Assembly: GCA_009869945.1 (NCBI GenBank)
Contig: WIXG01000094.1
Coordinates: forward strand, 166,885 to 230,884
Direction of reading: 5' to 3'
Source: Mesaphorura yosii
Taxonomy: Eukaryota; Arthropoda; Collembola; Poduromorpha; Tullbergiidae
Length of the DNA: 64,000 nucleotides
The position numbers and the translations under genes are program-made. Positions within the stretch are counted from its first letter, which is position 1. Each line of letters begins with the position of its first letter. Positions 14,330 through 62,498 of this stretch are shown piece after piece. Below the pieces are notes generated by a model that saw nothing but the letters and a program-made list of their open reading frames with translations, was not told where the DNA came from and made no database searches.

Positions 14330-14776
14330 CTTAACAATTCAATATGAAATTATTAAAGAGATTTTGTATGCTCTTTTTTGCCTTGCGTTGAAGTAGTTAA
14401 GTCGAAAAGGTGTCATTGTTCGTACGAATTTCCAATATTTTATTCCAAGAAATAAATCATGTTAATATTAAAATCTTTCCCGTTGCAAAGTTAACGTGAA
14501 ACCCGAAGTTCGCTCAGCCGTATAAACGATGCTGCTCTTCAGGCTCTCATTCCTTTCTTGTCAATCACCAAAACATAAAAATTGAGAAACTGCTTGGCCT
14601 TGTGCAGTGATTCAGTTTAACTATTTGATGCGCTTCTCAAGTATCAATCTCAGACGAATGACGTGATTAGTATGCGAAGTTTGAAGATCACGTCTCGTGA
14701 TTGCTTGCTGTCAAACATTTATCACAAATTCACTGATTCACTTCATAAGAGTCTTGTGTAGACGCGTACCCTGAAC
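14330..14776. other. Spacer between zinc-finger gene and FMO gene
   Basis: It holds the zinc-finger 3' UTR and the FMO promoter region. No further gene was seen. Confidence 0.5.
14451..14456 (+). terminator. AATAAA polyadenylation signal, zinc-finger gene
   Basis: AATAAA lies about 120 nt after the stop codon, a typical distance. Confidence 0.6.
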
Positions 14777-16914
14777 ATGGATTCCTCTGACAAAAAAGTC
14801 GCGATTGTTGGTGCTGGACCGTCGGGGCTCGTTGCTGCGAAGTACATGCTGAGTGTCGGGCTACAACCCACAATATTTGATAAAGCCTCCGACATTGGTG
14901 GAATGTGGAATCCAGAATGTCACCCGTCGTGGAAGTCCTTGAAAACGAACCTGTCTTGCTTCACGACTTGCTACTCCGACTTTCCATGGCCGGACGACTC
15001 ATCAGTATTCCCTACCCAAACCGAAATGCATTCATACTTGAAGAGTTATTCTGCAAAATTTATTCCGCCGCGTTGTTTTCGGTTGCAAACAACTGTGACC
15101 ACCATCAGGCCTGCGGCCGCCGACGGCACAAATGCGTGGTTGGTTGAGTGGACCGGTGCAAGTGGCCGTCATGTGGACTTCTTTGACTACCTCATCATTG
15201 CGACCGGCTTCTTCTCAACGCCTTACATTCCAAAGATCCCACTGGAAACGTTCACTGGAACCATTGTCCACAGTGATCAATATCGCTCACCAGACGAGTT
15301 CCGGCATAAACGTGTAGTGGTAGCTGGCTCATCGTTCAGCGCAGCTGAAATAAGTGCGGAAGTGCACAGTAGCGCAATGGAAGTTGTCAACGTCGTCTCA
15401 ACGCCTTTCTGGGCTATTCCACGTTTCATTCCGTTGCGTCCTGAAGATCCAGCCACTCCATTCTTACCCGTGGACATGGTATTCTACACCCGCACCAGCC
15501 GCGAGTCATTTAAGGAGATCATCATCAAGTCAGCTAATGATTATCGAAGCAGCCATCAGTACTTCAGCAAACTCTGCGGTCGTCAAATAGGTCTATACGA
15601 AGCACATGCTTTCCAACCGCAAGAAATTTCATCCACGCCAACGTTTGTCGCGATTTCTGACGATTACTTGCCAAGTGTCCGATCTGGGTTCGAACAACGC
15701 AACATTTTTGGGTCCAAGATTTGACGGTAAAATTTCATTTTATAAAAACAGGCAAATCAAAACTAGAATCGGACGAATCAAAGCAGCTTCTGGGTCGAAA
15801 GTGACCTTGGAGGACGGGTCCACCATTGCAGATGTGGACACGATCATCTTTTGCACCGGATTTCGGCCGATCTTTCCCTTCTTCCCACCCGAGATTTTGG
15901 AAGCAATTTCCTTCGACCCGAATGATTCCTTCTGCCCCTTCCTCCTACACAAAGCGACATTCTGTGCCAACTTGCCTGGTTTGGCTTTTGTAGGAGTTTA
16001 CCGTGGGCCGTATTTCTTAATTGTTGAGTTGCAGTCAAAGTGGGTCGCTGAGGTCTTCTCCAGAAAAAAAACTATTACGCCCGCTAAGCTGAAGAAAGGC
16101 GAATTGGTCGAAAAGCAAATTCGGGACCAGAGACCGCGTCCGCAATTCCCGCATCCTGACTACGTTGGATTCGCCTGCGACTTGGCTGAAGAAATCGGAA
16201 TTCTTCCTTCGACTTCTTTCACAGAGAATCGTCCGCTTTTTATGCCGGTTGACTTTTCTCCAGAAAATATTTCGTCGTTTCATCGCATGAACGCGGAGAG
16301 AGAAAAGTTCTTGTCGGGCAAAATGGTCGCTGGGGCTGTTTTTAGAGCGCTGGCTGGTAAGCACATTAAATGTCACGTTCTCCTTGCGCATACTTTCCGA
16401 AGTACGAGATATAAAATGCACAGGAAACTGGACAGTAAGCAATGAAACTCGTTCCAAACAAGCGACGGTGACATACACTTATTTTGATGATACCGAGGTG
16501 GACAAGGGAGTCAACTCGGTTCAGCATTTGCGCAGCGTTACTCTATCCGATGGAGGCCAAGCACTTAAAGAAAGCAACCTCGCACAAGGGTGGAGTTATG
16601 ATCACACCAAAGATGAAATAAGTATAAATTTTGCCCACAAGAATGCGTCTGACCGCCACGCCCTTATTTTCTTGCCACCCTCTTCGGAGTGGACAGACAA
16701 ATCTCCGAAACAAATATCAGACAGTGCAGGGTGGAGAGCTGTTTCAGAGTGTGTCGATGATCACAAAACGTGCAAACTCTACTTCCTGTTTCAATTCGCC
16801 GGAATCTTGCTGAGAAAGGTACACATTGAACTTGCAGTTGACGATGATCATGGTTATGGTATTTGTGGCTCATTATACACGTATACCAACACAGATTCCC
16901 AAATGACAAAATGA
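14777..16914 (+). CDS. Flavin-dependent monooxygenase with C-terminal extension domain
   Basis: Exons 14777-15687, 15752-16356 and 16424-16914 give about 668 residues. The FAD-binding motif VAIVGAGPSG is at residues 8-17, the FMO identifier-like motif FTGTIVHSDQY lies near residue 155, and a second Rossmann glycine motif follows as VVVAGSSFSAAEIS, in which the usual GxGxSG is replaced by GSSFSA. An IIFCTGFRP motif follows the first intron. FMO-type enzymes use NADPH and O2 to oxygenate N, S or carbonyl centres. Typical FMOs are about 430-550 residues; here about 165 residues are added after FRALAG, resembling what I recall of DUF6314-type domains (opening F-x-A-L-x-G-x-W, closing near C-x-x-x-Y). 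Intron 1 has a GTTCGA donor. For intron 2 an alternative acceptor at 16402 keeps the frame but would make a 46-bp intron. No N-terminal signal peptide or membrane anchor is evident. Confidence 0.9.
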
Positions 16915-21958: not shown

Positions 21959-24090
21959 TTATCCACTAGCAGTGAAAGGTGTTGAAGAAACTTGATTCCT
22001 TAAAGTCATCCAGCTCAGTTCTTGCTTCAGATTATTCGGCAGTCCTGATGCATCTAGCCGCACCTTGTTGGCGAGAATTGACAGGAGGCAGAGTGTCTTC
22101 AATGATGGGGCTAAAATAACACACAATTAGCATGCTTACAACCTCTCCACGAAGTAAATGACTCCGGTCTGTTTTCTAACAGCCTCACCTAAATCTAACA
22201 CATAGAGGTCATCGTGGTCAACCAAGTTACTTTCTTCCATCATGTCATCTCCGTAGTTTACAATGACTACTGAGTCATTTGGGCTTGTACCGCCGAAGAA
22301 GAAAGCTCGACTATCGAGTATGACACAACCTTGTCTTCTCCGGGGAGCTGGTCCACTTCCATATGGTACTATTTTTGTCCATACTCCGTTTTCTAAAAAG
22401 AAAGAATAAAAAGATGCATGTGACATACTAGTTCTTGTCTGAGCTGTTGCAATGAATATAGGAAGAAACCCGATTTCAGTACCTGGGTCATAGCGAAAGA
22501 AGTCATTAAAGTGCTGGTCCGTGGCACCGTTGTACCCTCCAAAAATGTACATGTAGCCGCCTTGCATAACTGAGAATTCAAGTCGTGTATCAAATCATTT
22601 GAAAACAACACGCTACTGTTGTGGGAAGACGCTAATTAGTAATTAATGTTCGTGTGAATACTACGTACATGCTGAGTGTGACCGTCTTCCCGATGGAAGG
22701 TCGCCTGTTATTTTAGGCCGAATCCATTCTTTCCTTTCCACGTCCAAACAAACTAGTGTATTGCAATAAATTTCAGCCCTCGTATGCATGGGTCCATGCA
22801 TGTCGCCCCGGCCTCCGAAGATTAGCATGTACCGATCCTTGAAGGCGGTTGCGGTATGAAAATCTCGGAATGTCGGCGCGGGCCCCTGGAGCAATAGCAG
22901 AATACAGCCAGGTCATAATTGCTGAGTAAAACACTCCGGGGTGATTGGAGTTACCGTTGTAGAAACAAAAGTCCATGTGAGCGTGTTCAGATCTAGCGAG
23001 TACACGTCCTGTGAGAACAAACCCACTTCCTCCTCGTAACCGCCAAAGATGAGCATTTTCTCACGAATGACGCAGGCTGAGTGCCCGTCGCGTGCACCGG
23101 GCGCATTCCCATCTATGGACGGCTTTTCCCATTTAAACGTGCGGGTATCAAACCGATATAGTGTCCGGCACGCTCGATCATCGTTACGACCACCCCACAA
23201 ATACACGTAATTTTTAAATGCGACGACGGTGTGTCCGTAGCGTTGAAATGGTGTGCATTCGTCACTTCTTGCAGGTAGCAACTTCCATCGGTACGTTACT
23301 GCAAAATTATGAATGAGATTTATGAGTTCAATTTCAATAAGTCAAGTCCGTCGCGTTCTTGAAAATACTTCTCCTCAAAATACTTTGGCTCTTTGATGTT
23401 TTGTCACCAAATCTGAGTTATACTCCATAAATCAATGACTTTCAGTTGTTTTAAATGTCAGGATCAAAAGTTGCGAAATTTTGAACACCTTTCTCCACAA
23501 AAACAACTCTCATCGTGATCTTTGTACCAGTGAACGTCATCCGTTGTTGCACACAAAAGTCAAGTTACTGCGAACCTCAGATGACATGGTAAACCACATG
23601 CAACTGTGTGCAGGTAAAGGGCATGAGGAAAACAGGTTTTCGTTATGCAATCAATAGCCTCATTTATTGTTCAAATCAAAAACAATTGCCAAATCATTTG
23701 AACTTGCTAAGCTATCCGAGCATAGAATGGAAAGGGTTTTATGGTGTTCTTATCGAATGTGAGTTGAAAAGAAGGCGATTGCGCATGAAGAAATTGATTC
23801 TTCAATACATGATGGTCATGGTCAGAGTTGCAAAATTAATGTCACTGAAACTGTCACTTTATTCACCAAACACGATCGGGTTCCAGGCTATTGATAAATA
23901 AATGGATAGGACACTCTTTAACTGTTCTATTCTAGTTACCTGGGTTCAGAATGTGAACATCAATGGGCCTCTGAACAGAATAGTTGTCTCCAGTGCAGTA
24001 TCCTCCAAACGAATAAATTAGATTTCCAACAGCTAATGCTGCATGGTTAACTCTTCTTGGACCACCTTCCACGTGGACCGACCAATGCAT
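21959..24090 (-). CDS. KLHDC3: Kelch domain-containing protein 3 orthologue
   Basis: Six exons on the minus strand: 24090-23940, 23298-22955, 22885-22669, 22569-22483, 22392-22189 and 22110-21959. They give about 384 residues, almost exactly the 382 of human KLHDC3. The protein opens with HWSVHVEGGPRRVNHAA and carries successive kelch repeats (YSFGGYCTGDNYS, YLWGGRNDDRACRTLY, GARDGHSACV, MLIFGGYEEEVG, FRDFHTATAF, MYIFGGYN, APRRRQGCV, FFFGGTSP). After the propeller it ends with a conserved helical tail beginning APSLKTLCLLSI. KLHDC3 is a CUL2 ubiquitin-ligase substrate receptor that recognises C-terminal glycine degrons and is testis-enriched in mammals. The last exon is recovered from phase and similarity only. 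Confidence 0.95.
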
Positions 24091-25368: not shown

Positions 25369-28300
25369 ATGGAATACGTCAAGCATGAATTGGAGAGGCT
25401 AACCGGGTGCTCGGTCATAGTACACCGTTTCTTCCATTTCATTCACAAGTTTACACAAGAAGCGTCGCACGCAGGTCATAAGAATGTCCGAGAAGAACGG
25501 CAGAAGGACATGGCACAGTTCGAATCTCACTGGAAAGAAGCATTTCCATCAAGTTTGACAAACTGCATCTTGGCCCATGGCGAACGACTTTGGATGCCTA
25601 AACTTTGCTGTAAGTTTCGCACTTCATCAATTTATAAAATAACTTTATGATCGCTTCGTTTTTCGTTTTAGACGATTCTGAGATTATGACCCAAGTGCCA
25701 TGGAGCATTTTCATTACGTACTATAAAAATGGTTCTATACCATCTGCAAACGGCAACTCAGTACCAACACAAGTAGTGCAGCCGGACCAGCCCCAGCCCC
25801 AAAAGGATAACGTTCCAGTAACACCAATGAACTTCGATCAGTTGGTACAGATCAGTTTTTGGAAACAATTGTACGAGCTCTACGGCAATTACATCGTGCG
25901 TTTCATCTTTGAGAAATGTCTGCTGGTACTTCCTATCGAAGAATCATTGTTCTTAGCCATATGTCACAAAAGTACCACGTACAATAAGCGAATTAATGAG
26001 TCCTCGAAGGCTCCAAATCACAGGATTCCAGTCATGCGATCACATAGCCCAATAACAAGAGCTCGAGGCCGCAACCCATATGAGGACGTCATCGACATGT
26101 GTGCTGCAGCTGCTCCTACGAAAAAACGTAAAAGTCGGAAGACCAAACTTGCTGAACCTAGTCGACGAAAAAGAAAGCGTGGACGCATGCTAACCGGAAA
26201 AGATGATTTAGAAATGATTGACGGTGGTGAGAATCCATTGAAAAAGAGAAGATTGGGCGTTGACGACATTGTAGATGATTCTTCGTCCCAATTCTGTACT
26301 TCAACAAGAGAGCCTCTGGGACCATCAATGTCGAAGCCAAGATCTGAAGGGACAGCGTTCACAGAAGACGTAGATGTCACAGTTCCTAGTCCAAGGTGGA
26401 TTACTCCTTCCTCAACTGTGGTACGAAGTATTCAGGAAGAAAGAAAATTGCTCAAGGCTAAGGACGTTGCAGAAGTTCCTGCCGCTTCTTCTCGACCAGG
26501 GCCACCCACCGCTTCCGGTAATTTGCCTGAGACCGGATACACTTTCGTCAACATAATGAAAGACAAGTACTTCAAAGGCAAACTTAGCCTCATAACTAAA
26601 GAAACTCACTTTGTTGTTGGAGCGCAAGAATTAGCGAAGAAGCTGGCTGGACTCAGGCTGCCCAAAGCTATTTCCTCAAGCGAAACACCCGTCGAAATTA
26701 CAGTCCATCGAATGTCTGAGACCGCTGCAAAGGAGTTGGGCATAAGGGTAATTCCAAAGAAGCGAAGACGACTTAGACAACGTAAGCCAGTTGAAAGCGT
26801 TTCCATATTTAGTAAAAGCAGTGGTATGAAATCACGTAGCGGCGTGATAAATCCTGAAGACCCGGACCTGGCTCTTACTCATCCGGCAGTTGGACAACTG
26901 CACATGGGCCAACCCAACAACAAACATGAAGGACTTCCTAGGAGTGTTGACAAACACGCGCCCCCAACTGATACTGTTCCTATTACCGCCGGCGACAAAT
27001 CATTCGAGCCCACAGTCCCACTCACAACATCGTCCATAGTCCACTTCCATTCCAGCGGAAATCAATTGCCTGAGGCATGTGGCATCGGTCAAGCTATATC
27101 TTCACTGCAGGCACAGTCAAGGTCACCGGGAATCAACATTGACAGCCTCCGGAGCAAAATTTTATACTCCTCAGTTGTATGTCCCCGGGATCGCGACAAA
27201 GAAAAATGGAAAAGCTCTGTCGAGAATTTGGAAAGAACTGGACGCCTGCAAAAGCTGGAAGATATTCTGAAGGAAATGGTTCAGTTCCATCGAAGAGCTC
27301 GAGATTTGAACAAACTCATGAAAAATTGTGTATATTTTTGGATATGGAAGTTAGGCTTGAAAGAGCAAGTCAGGGAAGAGCGGAAACAAACTGCTATGAC
27401 ACGCAAGGCTGAAAGAAGTAAACAAAGGCTTCAAAGACAAGCGCAAGCAGCGAAGAAACGAATCGAGGTGATTGACTTGACCGTCGACACATCGAGTGCT
27501 GCCAGCACCACCTTTTCTGGCTCGCCTGTGGTTGGCAGCCACCCGTCAAATGTGTCCGTCATCTTGACAAGTTCTTCCAGTGGACACAAGGATTCTGCCA
27601 ATTCTGTTGGGAAACTAAATCCGGATGCACCGTCATTCTCGTTGCTGTCCACCACTCCGAACAGATCACATTCGCAACGAAAACGGCAAAAATTAGCATT
27701 CTCAAAATTGAAGGAATCGATTCCCCATGCCTGCATCTTGTCAGCACTTTCACAAATATTATTCTTGTCTGGTGCATACAAATTGCTGGACTCAAATGCG
27801 AACAGGAGAGGATTTCTTTCGTTTGTCAGAAAGTCAGTATTTTTAGCTGGTATGAAATCCACACTACACTTGGGCCAGTTAATGGCAATGGTGAATCCTG
27901 GCATTTGCTCGTGGTTATCTGATATCAATGATGAGGGGATGAAGAGGCATTTATTTGCAAATGTTATTCACTGGCTCTACAATGAGTACGTTCTGATGAT
28001 CATCCGAACTTGCTTCTACGCAACGGAAATCAGCAATTGCCGCTTCCAGATGACATTCTATCTACGAGATACATGGAGGAGTATTTCTGATCGAATGAAG
28101 CACCAACTTTTGAGAAAGGGATGTCTTGTGCAGATTAGGAGGACAGAAACTGAATATAAACTTCCAGCAAATGCAAGAATGAGGCTCGTACCGAAACAAA
28201 ATCTACGCATTCGGCCAATCCTCTCCTTGAAACCATCAGTGTGAGTTACTACACGATGATAACGATAACGGTGTAACTAGTCTTACTCCTAACAATATCC

Positions 28301-30200
28301 TTGCATTCTTAGGAACCACAATATCAACATTTCACAATGCAGGCTATTGTTAAACTATGTGTGCGGAAATTTAGCACCTCATGGAATTTGTGACACATCA
28401 TCATTCCGCCACACGTGGAAAAGGTTCTTAAATTCTTGGAGACGGCGAAAAGGCAAACCACTCTACTACATTCGTCTTGATATTCGTGACGCGTATCCAT
28501 CAGTAAAAATTGACAAATTGAGGGAAATATTGCTCGAAACATGCTCCGCAGAAGACCAGTTGACGGCGAAACGATTTATAATAGTTGGGAAAAGATTCCT
28601 GGTAATGCTTCATACAAAAAATTGAACTTCGGAGTGCATAAGTTTGCTCATTGTGTTTTCACACTTTGCAGGCAAAGGCCTCGCTTACCAAACCTGGCGT
28701 GCCGAATATTAATTGGTACACATCATTGTTTAAGCGGCCTTCCATTGTGAAGGATGCCGAAATGGTAAGAGTTCAGTTCATCGAATGTCAAATGCAGACT
28801 CAACCCTACTGAATTCACAATCTTGTTGCTACTATTTGACAGGATTTTCGTTTCGAAAAGGGCAAGATTGTGCAATCGTTGATAACGACCTTGACATCAA
28901 ATGTTGTCCAGATAGGAAAGCAAAAATTTACATTCGCACATGGATTGCCACAGGTATACTTTAATTTTTTACCTGTCATCCATGTTTGACGTTTCCAAAT
29001 ACTTAAATCGATTTGTTTATAGGGTTGGTGTCTTTCCCAGGCCCTGTGTAACTTATATTATGGACACATGGACAAGAAGCATTTTTCACGCTTTTTGAAT
29101 AATGAAGATGAATGTTTTCTGCGCTCGGTTGATGACTACTTTTATATATCTCCAATTCCGGGACGAATTGCAGCGTTCTTTCACAGAATGAAATGTGGCC
29201 TTCCGGACTACAACTGTCATATTAATCCAGACAAATCACTCACAAATATTTTCGCTCGGTCAAACGTTCCAGCTCCCTTAAGTGATTGGGATTGGGTACG
29301 ATTTTGTGGATGGAGATTTTGCTTGACGAGTGGTCATATTGCGAGAGACTTCACTTCATACGCTGGAGCCGACTTTTGTTCTACACTTACTTTTCTGCTG
29401 AATCGAGCAAAGAGCCCTGAAGAGTATGCCACAATTCTCAACCGTTTTAGTAATGGAATTTGCCTTAAGATCTTTACAAGATCTTTCATTTCTACATTTC
29501 AGCTTCATTTATCGGAGAATGGGTATGGTTGCGCCGGTGCGTCTGAAGTTATTGGTCCTGGATCCCTCTATAAATTGCAGAGAACGCATTTTAACTACGA
29601 TTTATGAGGCTGGTTTAGTCATGGCGTTTCGATTTTACGCTGCTTGTCGTGTCCTTTACTCAAATATGACGTCCGTAGCAGACCCAGCTAAAGGGAATAA
29701 CTTATTTCAGTCCATAACTTGGTGCGCCTTATCCTTATCGAGGTTCGCTTATTTATATCGTACTGATTAATGCATGATTTGTCATTGCAAGGCTTGATAA
29801 CTGTATTCTCAGGTTTGTTTGCCGAAATACTGCCCATTTTTATACTGAAGAAAATTTAGCGTTTCACAAGTGTTATCTCAGCATTCACGGATCCACGAAC
29901 TGGTCTGTTGTGCCACAATCCACCCCAAAACGCGATCAACAGAGATCAGAGAAAAATACTTCTAGAGATCCCAAATGTGGTGATCCCGTCACTCCACTTG
30001 AAGTTTCATTCGTTGTGTATCAAGCTTTCCGCAGAAAGCTTTTGACGCACGCCAGCAATTTCAACCATGTTATCCTACCCAAATTGGACGCAAGAATTCG
30101 CACGTTGAAGAAAAGGTTGAGGAATCGTTCTCACTACATCTATTTAAGTCGTATCATTGGCAAAAAGATGCCACCCCATTTTTGTGATATTAAAATATAG
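25369..30200 (+). CDS. TERT: Telomerase reverse transcriptase
   Basis: Eight exons: 25369-25609, 25672-28240, 28313-28601, 28672-28764, 28843-28953, 29023-29423, 29503-29742 and 29813-30200; about 1443 residues. The RNA-binding domain shows a FLHWL-like helix (VIHWLYNEYVLMIIR), the T motif (FQMTFYLRDTW), and motifs 1/2 (MRLVPKQNLRIRPILS). The palm has motif A LDIRDAYPS (Asp near 993), motif B' HGLPQGWCLSQALCNLYYG and motif C SVDDYFYISP (Asp near 1138-1139). Motif D/E (DWDWVRFCGWRF) and a complete C-terminal thumb (MAFRFYAACRVL onward) follow. All three catalytic aspartates are present, so the enzyme looks functional. It extends chromosome ends using an RNA template. Residues about 130-600 are a long Pro/Ser/basic linker with a strong nuclear-localisation-like run (RRKRKRGR), making it about 300 residues longer than human TERT. 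Exon 7 uses donor GTTCGC; exon 6 ends at a GTATGC donor chosen because it restores the thumb frame. Confidence 0.95.
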
Positions 30201-31522: not shown

Positions 31523-32448
31523 ATGGTAAGTCTGCACTGACCACTTAACTATAGTTAATTAAGGATCCTTTACTTGTCGGTTGGTCACACTGTGCTAACA
31601 AAATTGGACTCTTATTGTAATTTACAGGCGTTCAGAAAATTTGTTGAAACCGGCCGTGTGGCATTCATCGCTGAAGGACCAGATGAGGGCAAGCTGTGTG
31701 CAATCGTCAACATCATTGATCAAAATCGGGTACGTAAACGGAGATGTGACAACTGACGATGCATTTCCATTTGTCACTGCCTCCGAGGACGGCTGAAGAA
31801 AAAAGTAAAGAGAAGAGATAAAATGATGATCCATTATATAGGAATTGCCGGCTGATCGATATATGAAGCTAATTGCTATACTGATTACAAATTAGTTCTA
31901 ATTTTAAGCGTATGCTGGATTGTATTCGAAAACGGTTGTTCGTCGCTCCAGTCGTATTCAATCTTTCTGTATGACTGTAGGTACTAGTCGACGGACCCAC
32001 AACTGGTATCCCAAGACAAGAAATGCCGCTGAGAAAGCTGCATTTGACAGCACTGTCGATGAAGTATCCATGGACAGCTCCAACTCGCGTCATTCGGAAA
32101 GCCTGGACTGAGGCGGAGATTGATAAGAAGTGGGAAGCATCACGTTGGGCAAAGAGAGTCGAGGCCAGAAAGATTGTACGTTCAAAATTTAGAAACTCAT
32201 CAAGGAGTGTACCTTTGTTGTCTTTCCTTTATTTCATGGTTGATTTCATTGCTTTACAGCGAGCTGGGCTTACAGACTTTGATCGATTCAAGCTGGACCG
32301 TGCACGTCGCACACGAAACAAGATTCGTCGAAATGTCTACCTTCAGCTTCTTAACAACGCAAAATCGAAAGGTGGACTAGTACCTAAGAAGACCAAGTAC
32401 GGAAAGAAGAAGCCGGCGAAGAAAGTAGTGCCGGCAAAGAAGAAATAA
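31523..32448 (+). CDS. RpL14: Large ribosomal subunit protein eL14
   Basis: Four exons: 31523-31525, 31628-31729, 31981-32175 and 32260-32448; 162 residues. The first coding exon contains only the ATG, spliced at ATG|GTAAGT. The protein reads [51 protein letters not shown] and [20 protein letters not shown], all diagnostic of eL14, and ends in a Lys/Pro/Ala-rich basic tail typical of the family. eL14 is a structural protein of the 60S subunit. Intron position after the start codon is common in ribosomal protein genes. Strong, constitutive expression is expected. Confidence 0.98.
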
Positions 32449-59991: not shown

Positions 59992-59999
59992 TATAAATA
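59992..59999 (+). promoter_or_regulatory. TATA box of the cytokine-like gene
   Basis: A TATAAATA motif lies 159 bp before the start codon at 60151. An initiator-like pyrimidine/CA sequence follows at about 60024. A strong TATA promoter fits an inducible or tissue-restricted gene, which is inference. Confidence 0.55.
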
Positions 60000-60150
60000 C
60001 AGGTGAGAATGATCTCAGGATTCAATCCGGCTCAATCTCGGCTCAGATCTCTTCACCTCACAGCAATAGCGTCATCATATTTGGAATTCTTGTGTTTTTC
60101 ATAATATTTTCAAGTCAACATTTGCATTTTTTGAGGGATATTCTTTCAAA

Positions 60151-61213
60151 ATGGTTTACCGCAACATTCTATCGACTATTTTTCTCACCGGTACAGTCAC
60201 TTCCAGTCGTTGAATCCATTCTAAAGGCTCAATACCATAGCTTTTGTTAATATCCATATTTCAGTCACCGTTTCGTTTCTTGGCGTCTCGATTGCGACCG
60301 CGAGAGAGGTCGCCGTCCAGGGACGAACGTACGAATCCACCGTTGGTGAACTTCCACTTTCGACTCGTGAAGCACTCAGAGACCCATGTGGCACAAGATT
60401 CTCTCAACCCAGGATTCTCTCGAACTACCGGAACAAGAGGAACAGTCAGGCTGGCGAGAATTTCTTTCAACGCATGATGAGCGAAGTGCATCGAGCGGCT
60501 GTTATACTGGAGAAAATTCTACAAACTGACCCGGTAAGATCCCTCAATTCGTAGTACGCACTTTCTTTGAAGTTTCATGAACAAATCTTTAGGATGTGGG
60601 AGCATGCATTGGTCTTGGTCCACTGAAAAGTTTCCCTGCAATTCCTTCTCCAGCAAGTGTCCATTTCGTAAGTTTGAATCGAATTAGACATAGCAAGCAG
60701 AGAAGCCATTAAAATTGAACCTTTTCTCTCTCTTACGAACAGAAGGTACAGTTCAAACGTGATGTGTATCAAATTGGAATAAATTTGGTGGCCCATTTAC
60801 GTGTCATGAGCTTAGATCGACAAATGATTGTCAATAACACTGGAATGAACCAAATAATCCGCTGTGGATCCGAATCAGAGTCGTTGGGTGGACTTTTTGA
60901 CGAACTCACAAGCGTATTAGATGACATTCTTTGTGTCACCATGAACGAGGGCCAGACATCCGAGTCTTCCGAGTCGGATGTCGTTCAGCTTAATTTCATA
61001 CGGGACCTTGAGGAGCTCATGAAGATTCCGATGCTGCGATTTTCGAATGTTTGTTCCAGCATGGAAGTTCGTGACTGCCTGGTCATACATGAACTGCAAC
61101 GTTTTCTTGGTTCTTACATGTACTTTGTTGTTAAGAAGGCTTTGCATCCTGAACAGGGGTCGTTCAATTTATTGCCCTTCGCACAATATAGGATCCCAAC
61201 GTACTCTTATTAA
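60151..61213 (+). CDS. Secreted helical protein, putative class I four-helix cytokine
   Basis: Four exons, 60151-60190, 60265-60533, 60593-60667 and 60743-61213, encode 284 residues. Residues 1-26 form a signal peptide (ILSTIFLTVTVSFLGVSIATA). A candidate helix A is FFQRMMSEVHRAAVILEKIL near residues 81-100, followed by a Cys/Pro-containing A-B loop (CIGLGPLKSFPAIPSP). Candidate helix B is FKRDVYQIGINLVAHLRVM, helix C is GLFDELTSVLDDILCVTM and helix D is CLVIHELQRFLGSYMYFVVK. The spacing, the amphipathic pattern, the B-C-D helices in one last exon and the helix D pattern (LxELQxxL) recall LIF/CNTF/CLCF1-type long-chain cytokines and could correspond to insect Unpaired. This is pattern-based; no direct family match was recognised. 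It could instead be another secreted helical protein. Four cysteines after the signal peptide could pair. Confidence 0.75.
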
Positions 61214-61443
61214 ACTGGAAGTTTGAAACGGTGCTAGTAAAATTAATGGTGCTTGGTCTGTGAGTAATTAATGATTATTGAACATTATTGGGATACAATG
61301 TACCAAGGCATTCCTTAAACTAATTCTCTCATACTGCTTTAAGACGGATTTGTCTTAAAGGACAATGTCAAGATTCGATACGATAATTAGTTATTACAAG
61401 AACAGAGATAAAGGTTAAAGCAGTGCTTAAATTACCAAAATTA

Positions 61444-61568: not shown

Positions 61569-62498
61569 TTACAACAAATAAATAGTCAACATAATTGCAA
61601 GAAACGCTTTTACGACTAATGTCAACAGCAGCCCTAATCCCACTAGGATAATACCTCCGAGGCCAACAGAAGTGGAAACAACAATAAATGCTTGCATCAG
61701 CCCAACTGTGCTTGCCAGTATTAAACCCGTTCTTGACTCAGCTTCCGCTGGAGCTAGTCCTGTTTCATCTTCTCCGCCCGCTGCATAATCATCTAAATCC
61801 GCCCGTTTTAACGCAGTGTCGTTCATCTCGTGTCCACTAAAAAGCGAGTAAGTCTCCGAGTAGATGCTTGACATATTTGGCTTGTTTCCCAGAAGTGACT
61901 TCATTAATTGCTTCGTTAAATCCCCGTAGGTTGTTGAAATCTTTGTTCTCGTCTTCGGTTTTGGAACAACGGATTTCCATCGGTTGGAGTAAATTGGGCG
62001 AAATTTTGGCTTTGGCTTCTTGTAAGCATACTGACTGCTCTTTCCCTTTGTACTGAAATATTTTTGCGGCGAGGGCAACGATGACGAGGAAAACGTGCGT
62101 GCCATCTCCTGCATATTCTCAGAGTTGAGAGACGGTAAGGAAGCTCTTGTGGCCAAATACTTCGCCTCGTGATCTGAGGAGAGTGCAATACTATTCACTG
62201 AAAGCAAAGCAACAATGAGTAAACAATGACATCTTTCGTCCCGTGTCCTTTCCGTACTTACCCTTAACTGGTACCATTTTAAGGCATTTTTAAACCTTAC
62301 CTTCTCTTTTGCTCCTGCTCATAGAATGGTCACCTATTCCTGTTCGCTGACTTCTTGCCAACGTCTATGAGCAAGAGTGTAGAATTTTCTGATTAATTCA
62401 CGCATATCTCGCGATTCGTTATTTCGATTTAACTCTCTTACCTGCTGAGTAAAGGAGCAGTAAACTGTCACCCAAAATATTTTCCAGTAGCACTCCAT
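61569..62498 (-). CDS. Uncharacterised protein with signal-like N-terminus and hydrophobic C-terminus
   Basis: Three exons on the minus strand, 62498-62442, 62364-62301 and 62197-61569, join in phases 0 and 1 to give about 249 residues. The first exon (MECYWKIFWVTVYCSFTQQ) looks like a short signal peptide. The middle is Ser/Lys/Pro-rich and basic (SSQYAYKKPKPKFRPIYSNR, SVVPKPKTRTK), then acidic (DLDDYAAGGEDE). The last 55 residues are almost entirely hydrophobic with Gly/Leu runs (GLGGIILVGLGLLLTLV), enough for one or two membrane helices, and end at the C-terminus. I do not recognise the family. An alternative start at 62277 gives a shorter protein without the signal-like exon. Its stop lies 356 bp from that of the convergent cytokine-like gene. 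Confidence 0.7.

Follow-up and report, generated by a model that had tools for sequence, protein, structure and literature searches.

A gene of four coding exons lies on the forward strand at 60151-61213 of the window, by which we mean the whole 64,000-nt stretch of DNA that was analysed and to which all numbering refers (the host genome comprises 93.0 Mb in 1127 contigs). Its introns of 74, 59 and 75 nt are each bounded by GT and AG, and the spliced product has 284 amino acids and no internal stops. The gene and the encoded protein show the following features.

59992..59999 (+): TATAAATA, putative core promoter about 150 nt 5' of the start codon (exact match; role assigned by eye)
60151..60190 (+): exon 1, start codon and first 13 signal-peptide codons; ends in phase 1
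60265..60533 (+): exon 2, remaining signal peptide, pro-region with Cys55, RNKR and helix A; ends in phase 0
60429..60440 (+): RNKR (R69-N70-K71-R72), motif of a furin-like proprotein convertase site, which may be cleaved
60593..60667 (+): exon 3, A-B loop, residues 104-128, with Cys108 and prolines; ends in phase 0
60743..61213 (+): exon 4, residues 129-284 and the stop codon, with four further predicted helices and four cysteines
60833..60841 (+): N-glycosylation sequon N159-N-T in the B-C loop, the only sequon counted

The gene model and its product

The start codon at 60151 is surrounded by CAAAATGG. To judge the model, the longest spliced coding sequence within 60100-61300 was determined, allowing up to three introns of 50-110 nt, and by this rule it reached 292 amino acids. 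In 200 dinucleotide shuffles the longest spliced coding sequence averaged 95 and at most reached 197 amino acids, so that none of the 200 attained 284 or more. An upstream non-genic stretch, taken as 18 tiles (nine places, both strands), yielded 129 amino acids at most, and the reverse strand of the locus 123. The gene is real, and its model lies far above chance. The four longest models from the ATG at 60151 (292, 289, 284 and 281 amino acids) vary only at the acceptor of intron 1 (60241 or 60265) and at the start of exon 4 (60743 or 60752, a shift of 9 nt). Four further models of 276-265 amino acids use a donor at 60485 and lose much of helix A. Codon usage did not separate the frames of the candidate gene and therefore speaks neither for nor against it. 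The putative promoter motif TATAAATA is present in 12 copies in the window versus 2.2 expected from shuffles, and is hence common here; this excess suggests that TATA-type promoters may be common in the genome.

Residues 7-25 have a mean hydropathy of 1.83 and are followed by a cleavage site, placed by eye between ATA and R. By hydropathy, this is a typical signal peptide, in line with the original prediction. RNKR stands two residues before the predicted start of helix A. The whole protein contains three dibasic pairs and a single R-x-x-R, and the 212 residues after RNKR are mainly predicted to be helical. The six cysteines are at positions 55, 108, 169, 192, 232 and 240. The A-B loop, described beforehand as a Cys/Pro loop, holds one cysteine and several prolines, and all residues past it belong to the last exon, so that the predicted helices B, C and D share one terminal exon as proposed. 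Phase 0 introns in the mature region had also been claimed; this is true of introns 2 and 3, while intron 1, left unmentioned at the time, is in phase 1 and falls within the signal peptide (phases 1,0,0). A short exon 1 and phase 1 followed by phase 0, as seen here, form the layout that is usual, though not required, for class I cytokine genes.

Several other genes were recognised in the window. These are a flavin-containing monooxygenase at 14762-15721 (+) (E 5.8e-39), a kelch-repeat gene at 22139-22594 (-), a telomerase gene at 25638-28241 (+) with a Telomerase_RBD match (E 2.8e-14) in a long open frame, and ribosomal protein L14 at 31981-32445 (+) (E 4.7e-20). The next long frame after that of telomerase (29023-29604) appears by eye to continue it and had no Pfam matches. 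A convergent neighbour of the candidate gene, the orphan frame 61572-62318 (-), has 249 open codons and a hydrophobic C-terminal end, and no Pfam match was found for it at E<=0.001. The genome as a whole has at least 66 Chitin_bind_4 matches, which mark the host as an arthropod, and four PBP_GOBP matches, which might point to a hexapod. An intronless 362-codon frame of a 2-oxoglutarate oxygenase on contig C759 (best PDB matches E 7.6e-140 and 2.5e-118) perhaps stems from a contaminating bacterial contig or from gene transfer; DIOX_N had 11 further matches on contigs other than C759.

Predicted helices and searches for relatives

AlphaFold2 models were computed from single sequences and exon by exon (exon 2 alone, exon 4 alone). 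The main helices are listed below.

60447..60524 (+): helix A, residues 75-100, from the AlphaFold2 model of exon 2 alone
60746..60826 (+): predicted helix B, residues 130-156, weak (low pLDDT, amphipathicity not above shuffles)
60884..60949 (+): predicted helix C, residues 176-197, from the low-pLDDT exon 4 model; amphipathic
60974..61054 (+): predicted helix C', residues 206-232, containing Pro224; weak
61067..61144 (+): predicted helix D, residues 237-262, preceded by Cys232 and with Cys240 in the first turn; weak

Helix A was predicted with mean pLDDT values of 91, 96 and 80 for the 10-residue blocks from residue 77 on. The exon 2 model also contained, at low confidence, two short strands and short helices over residues 45-50 and 62-72. 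Exon 4 alone gave four helices (mean pLDDT 46.6, pTM 0.35), and the structural matches of this low-confidence model were generic helical bundles, either designed or unrelated. The observed amphipathicity was reached by 26 of 5000 shuffles for helix A (residues 77-101) and by 106 of 5000 for helix C; it was not above shuffles for B (2253/5000), C' (taken as 206-224; 1324/5000) and D (2141/5000). In 18-residue windows starting at residues 115-130, the beta moment exceeds the alpha moment (up to 0.52 versus 0.21). The original prediction had named four amphipathic helices. Helices are indeed predicted, but helix A in exon 2 and the four in exon 4 add up to five main helices rather than four, and the amphipathic character applies to A and C but not to B, C' and D. 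The spacing amounts to 29 residues between A and B, 19 between B and C and 39 between C and D, with C' inside the last interval, and these predicted distances would be compatible with two long crossover loops in the fold.

The whole protein had no match at E<=10 in Pfam, NCBIfam or the PDB sequences, and exon 4 alone had none among the PDB sequences at the same threshold. A resemblance of helix D to CLCF1/CNTF (HELQRFL), which had been part of the original prediction, was rejected on these PDB results, obtained with the whole protein and with exon 4. No paralogue was detected, the candidate's own exons being the sole matches in its own genome, and the viral contigs yielded no match to the candidate protein. 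The Unpaired family (PF15972) was absent among the protein's Pfam matches at E<=10. Its profile also gave no candidates in the whole genome; the control of this search likewise matched nowhere, so that the absence of Unpaired from the genome is not shown. A literature search retrieved no description of such a protein. The orphan status thus relates to Pfam, NCBIfam, the PDB sequences, the own genome and the viral contigs, and orthologues may still exist in related arthropods. Taken together, the predictions support a secreted, mainly helical orphan protein as the product of the gene.

JAK/STAT pathway loci in the same genome

The genome profile search returned three above-cut-off STAT matches at two loci, both of which have the linker and SH2 domains. 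One locus (L005/L007) is on contig C391 and the other (L006) on contig C7. More than one STAT has been reported for chelicerates and some amphipods, and most other arthropods are said to have one, according to the available part of PMC5437397. A search with Jak1_Phl gave two matches, both below the cut-off. L008 was put aside by eye as a JAK candidate. In L009, FERM_F1 (E 2e-12) and part of a kinase domain exceed the cut-offs, with weaker FERM_F2, Jak1_Phl and SH2 pieces alongside, and the FERM part of this locus matched JAK2 among the PDB sequences (E 1.4e-14). Judged by this domain content, L009 is the JAK locus.

A receptor was sought in two ways. With IL6Ra-bind, two sub-threshold matches were obtained, on contigs C10 (E 0.04) and C13 (E 3.85); the match on C10 was rejected because by eye it falls in a short frame that lacks receptor features and is flanked by unrelated genes. 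In addition, 20 regions were hand-picked from among the 148 fn3 matches in the genome and screened with a relaxed class I Cys/Trp pattern, which was found in two of the 20, L019 and L026. L019 was dismissed since its motif lies on the strand opposite its fn3 match, and a WTGWT match in L030 was rejected on the same ground.

L026 (contig C170) has an Ig-like N-terminal part, the arrangement C-x9-C-x-W-x23-C-x11-C and fn3 domains (E 1.2e-11). The published pattern is C-x9-10-C-x-W-x26-32-C-x10-15-C, accompanied by fn3 domains and, in invertebrates, by an incomplete WSXWS motif, as given in the available part of PMC10276838. Thus, one spacing in L026 (x23 versus x26-32) is three residues short. 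No W[ST]xW[ST] was found in L026 by pattern, and FWSEPAVS was taken by eye as the incomplete WSXWS. The first open frame of L026 matched CRLF1 (E 3.7e-4) and IL-23R (E 0.027) among the PDB sequences, two of the nine listed matches (E 0.1 and 1.4) being unrelated to receptors. Pfam matches to the leptin-receptor Ig and LIF-receptor domains were below their cut-offs. We take L026 as a putative Domeless/gp130-like receptor on the strength of its sequence. The check for such a receptor was therefore positive, with a gp130/Domeless-like locus present in the genome beside a JAK locus and two STAT loci.

A possible ligand, its alternatives and known systems

The analysis shows the gene itself and, from their sequences, the STAT, JAK and putative receptor loci; hydropathy indicates the signal peptide, and helix A is well predicted. 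The best specific mechanism, and a plausible one, is that the protein is a cytokine-like ligand, i.e., a helical bundle that binds the Domeless/gp130-like receptor of its own genome and activates JAK and STAT. The protein would be secreted through its signal peptide and potentially trimmed at RNKR just ahead of helix A. It would then adopt a bundle of the long-chain class I type, in which C and D are separated by an additional helix, and bind the Domeless/gp130-like receptor, and receptor binding might in turn activate the JAK and STAT of the genome. We consider this ligand role possible, at somewhat less than even chances. In its favour we counted the well-predicted helix A together with the all-helical exon 4 model, a gene above chance, the signal peptide with RNKR, the phases 1,0,0 and the presence of the pathway loci. 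Counted against it were sequence searches that connect the protein with neither a cytokine family nor Unpaired, the exon 4 pLDDT of 46.6 with its generic structural matches, the helices B, C' and D that are no more amphipathic than shuffles, the beta moment at 115-130 and the low-confidence strands and short helix of exon 2. The fact that a genome holds many secreted orphans and that there is no specific tie to the receptor was also weighed against it. Of the JAK/STAT-type ligand originally predicted, the secreted helical orphan, the gene layout and the pathway loci stand, but the label LIF/CNTF-like has no support, and no sequence link to Unpaired, IL-6, LIF or CNTF was found; the JAK/STAT-type ligand itself is a reasonable hypothesis. 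A narrower version is doubtful. In it, the protein would serve an arthropod lineage without recognisable Unpaired as the endogenous ligand of a Domeless-type receptor, being a class I cytokine that either arose independently or diverged extremely far and whose proprotein is activated by a convertase; if true, it would close the gap that has been reported for JAK/STAT ligands outside flies.

The strongest competitor is a secreted helical protein that is restricted to the lineage and does an unrelated job (e.g., a seminal, salivary, cuticular or binding protein). Its helices and signal peptide would then be generic features, and the pathway genes would merely be those general to arthropods. In favour of this reading are the absence of relatives in Pfam, NCBIfam and the PDB sequences, the lack of any detected paralogue, an uninformative exon 4 model and JAK/STAT core genes that arthropods generally possess according to the available part of PMC5437397; because of the latter, the presence of the pathway raises the odds of a ligand only a little. 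The cytokine-like phase layout and the pro-region with a convertase site argue against an unrelated job. So does the lack of a second copy in the genome search, as lineage-specific effector genes are often multi-copy. In sum, we rate the unrelated orphan slightly above the ligand, because the pathway genes are general in arthropods and nothing ties the candidate to the pathway, yet it names no single mechanism and itself stays below an even chance.

The RNKR site and the six cysteines would also suit a peptide-hormone or growth-factor precursor that is cut at RNKR to free an active part with a fold other than a cytokine bundle. Such precursors are improbable here, as the protein has no more than three dibasic pairs and a single R-x-x-R, its post-RNKR part consists of 212 mainly helical residues by prediction, and Pfam gave no hormone or growth-factor family at E<=10. 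Still less probable, and in our view quite unlikely, is a helical cytokine-like protein of class II (interferon/IL-10 type) instead of class I. Five helices are predicted and genes of this class have phase 0 introns (available part of PMC8863823), but the Cys/Trp motif of L026 is of the class I type and class I receptors are its best matches among the PDB sequences, in a search that covered the class I type only.

The cytokine-like ligand is of interest in view of what has been published on arthropod JAK/STAT activators. These were called largely unknown in the available part of PMC9195186. Searches for Unpaired homologues in Varroa came up empty, as they had for other mites and ticks, and Apis and Coccidae are said to lack them (PMC12027997, available part), Upd2 homologues were annotated in 12 Drosophila species only (PMC5385356, available part), and IL6 was found in vertebrates only (PMC13203501, available part). 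Since ligands are little known in arthropods and the pathway is present, the candidate is worth testing. With a candidate ligand and a putative receptor in one genome, the question can be addressed by a binding and reporter assay; if this test fails, an ordinary secreted orphan gene is left.

Among known ligand systems, the candidate resembles the Unpaired family (PF15972, Upd1-3) as a secreted protein, helical by prediction, in an arthropod genome with a Domeless-type receptor, JAK and STAT, but has no detectable sequence similarity to it (no Pfam match at E<=10). With class II cytokines (interferons, IL-10 family) it shares phase 0 introns, more than four predicted helices and secretion, again without a sequence match in Pfam. 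Five coding exons and phase 0 introns are usual in class II genes (PMC8863823, available part), whereas the candidate has four and its first intron is in phase 1. In human IFNL2/3, the first intron splits a codon and phase-zero introns follow (PMC2654155, available part). IFN-upsilon was found by a screen with multi-exon, phase-zero, signal-peptide and multi-helix criteria (PMC8863823, available part).

The long-chain class I cytokines (IL-6, LIF, CNTF, leptin, growth hormone) and the candidate have in common a signal peptide, an A-B loop with Cys and Pro, a helix A exon preceding this loop and phase 0 introns in the mature part. The typical phases of long-chain class I genes are 1,0,0,0. The candidate differs from this group by lacking a PDB sequence match at E<=10 and by its RNKR pro-region; long-chain class I cytokines are not known to have a pro-region of this type. 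The predicted helix C' between C and D recalls a helix described at this place in IL-6 (PMC7378365, available part). By analogy, the exon and phase layout of the candidate is in modest agreement with that of helical cytokine genes.
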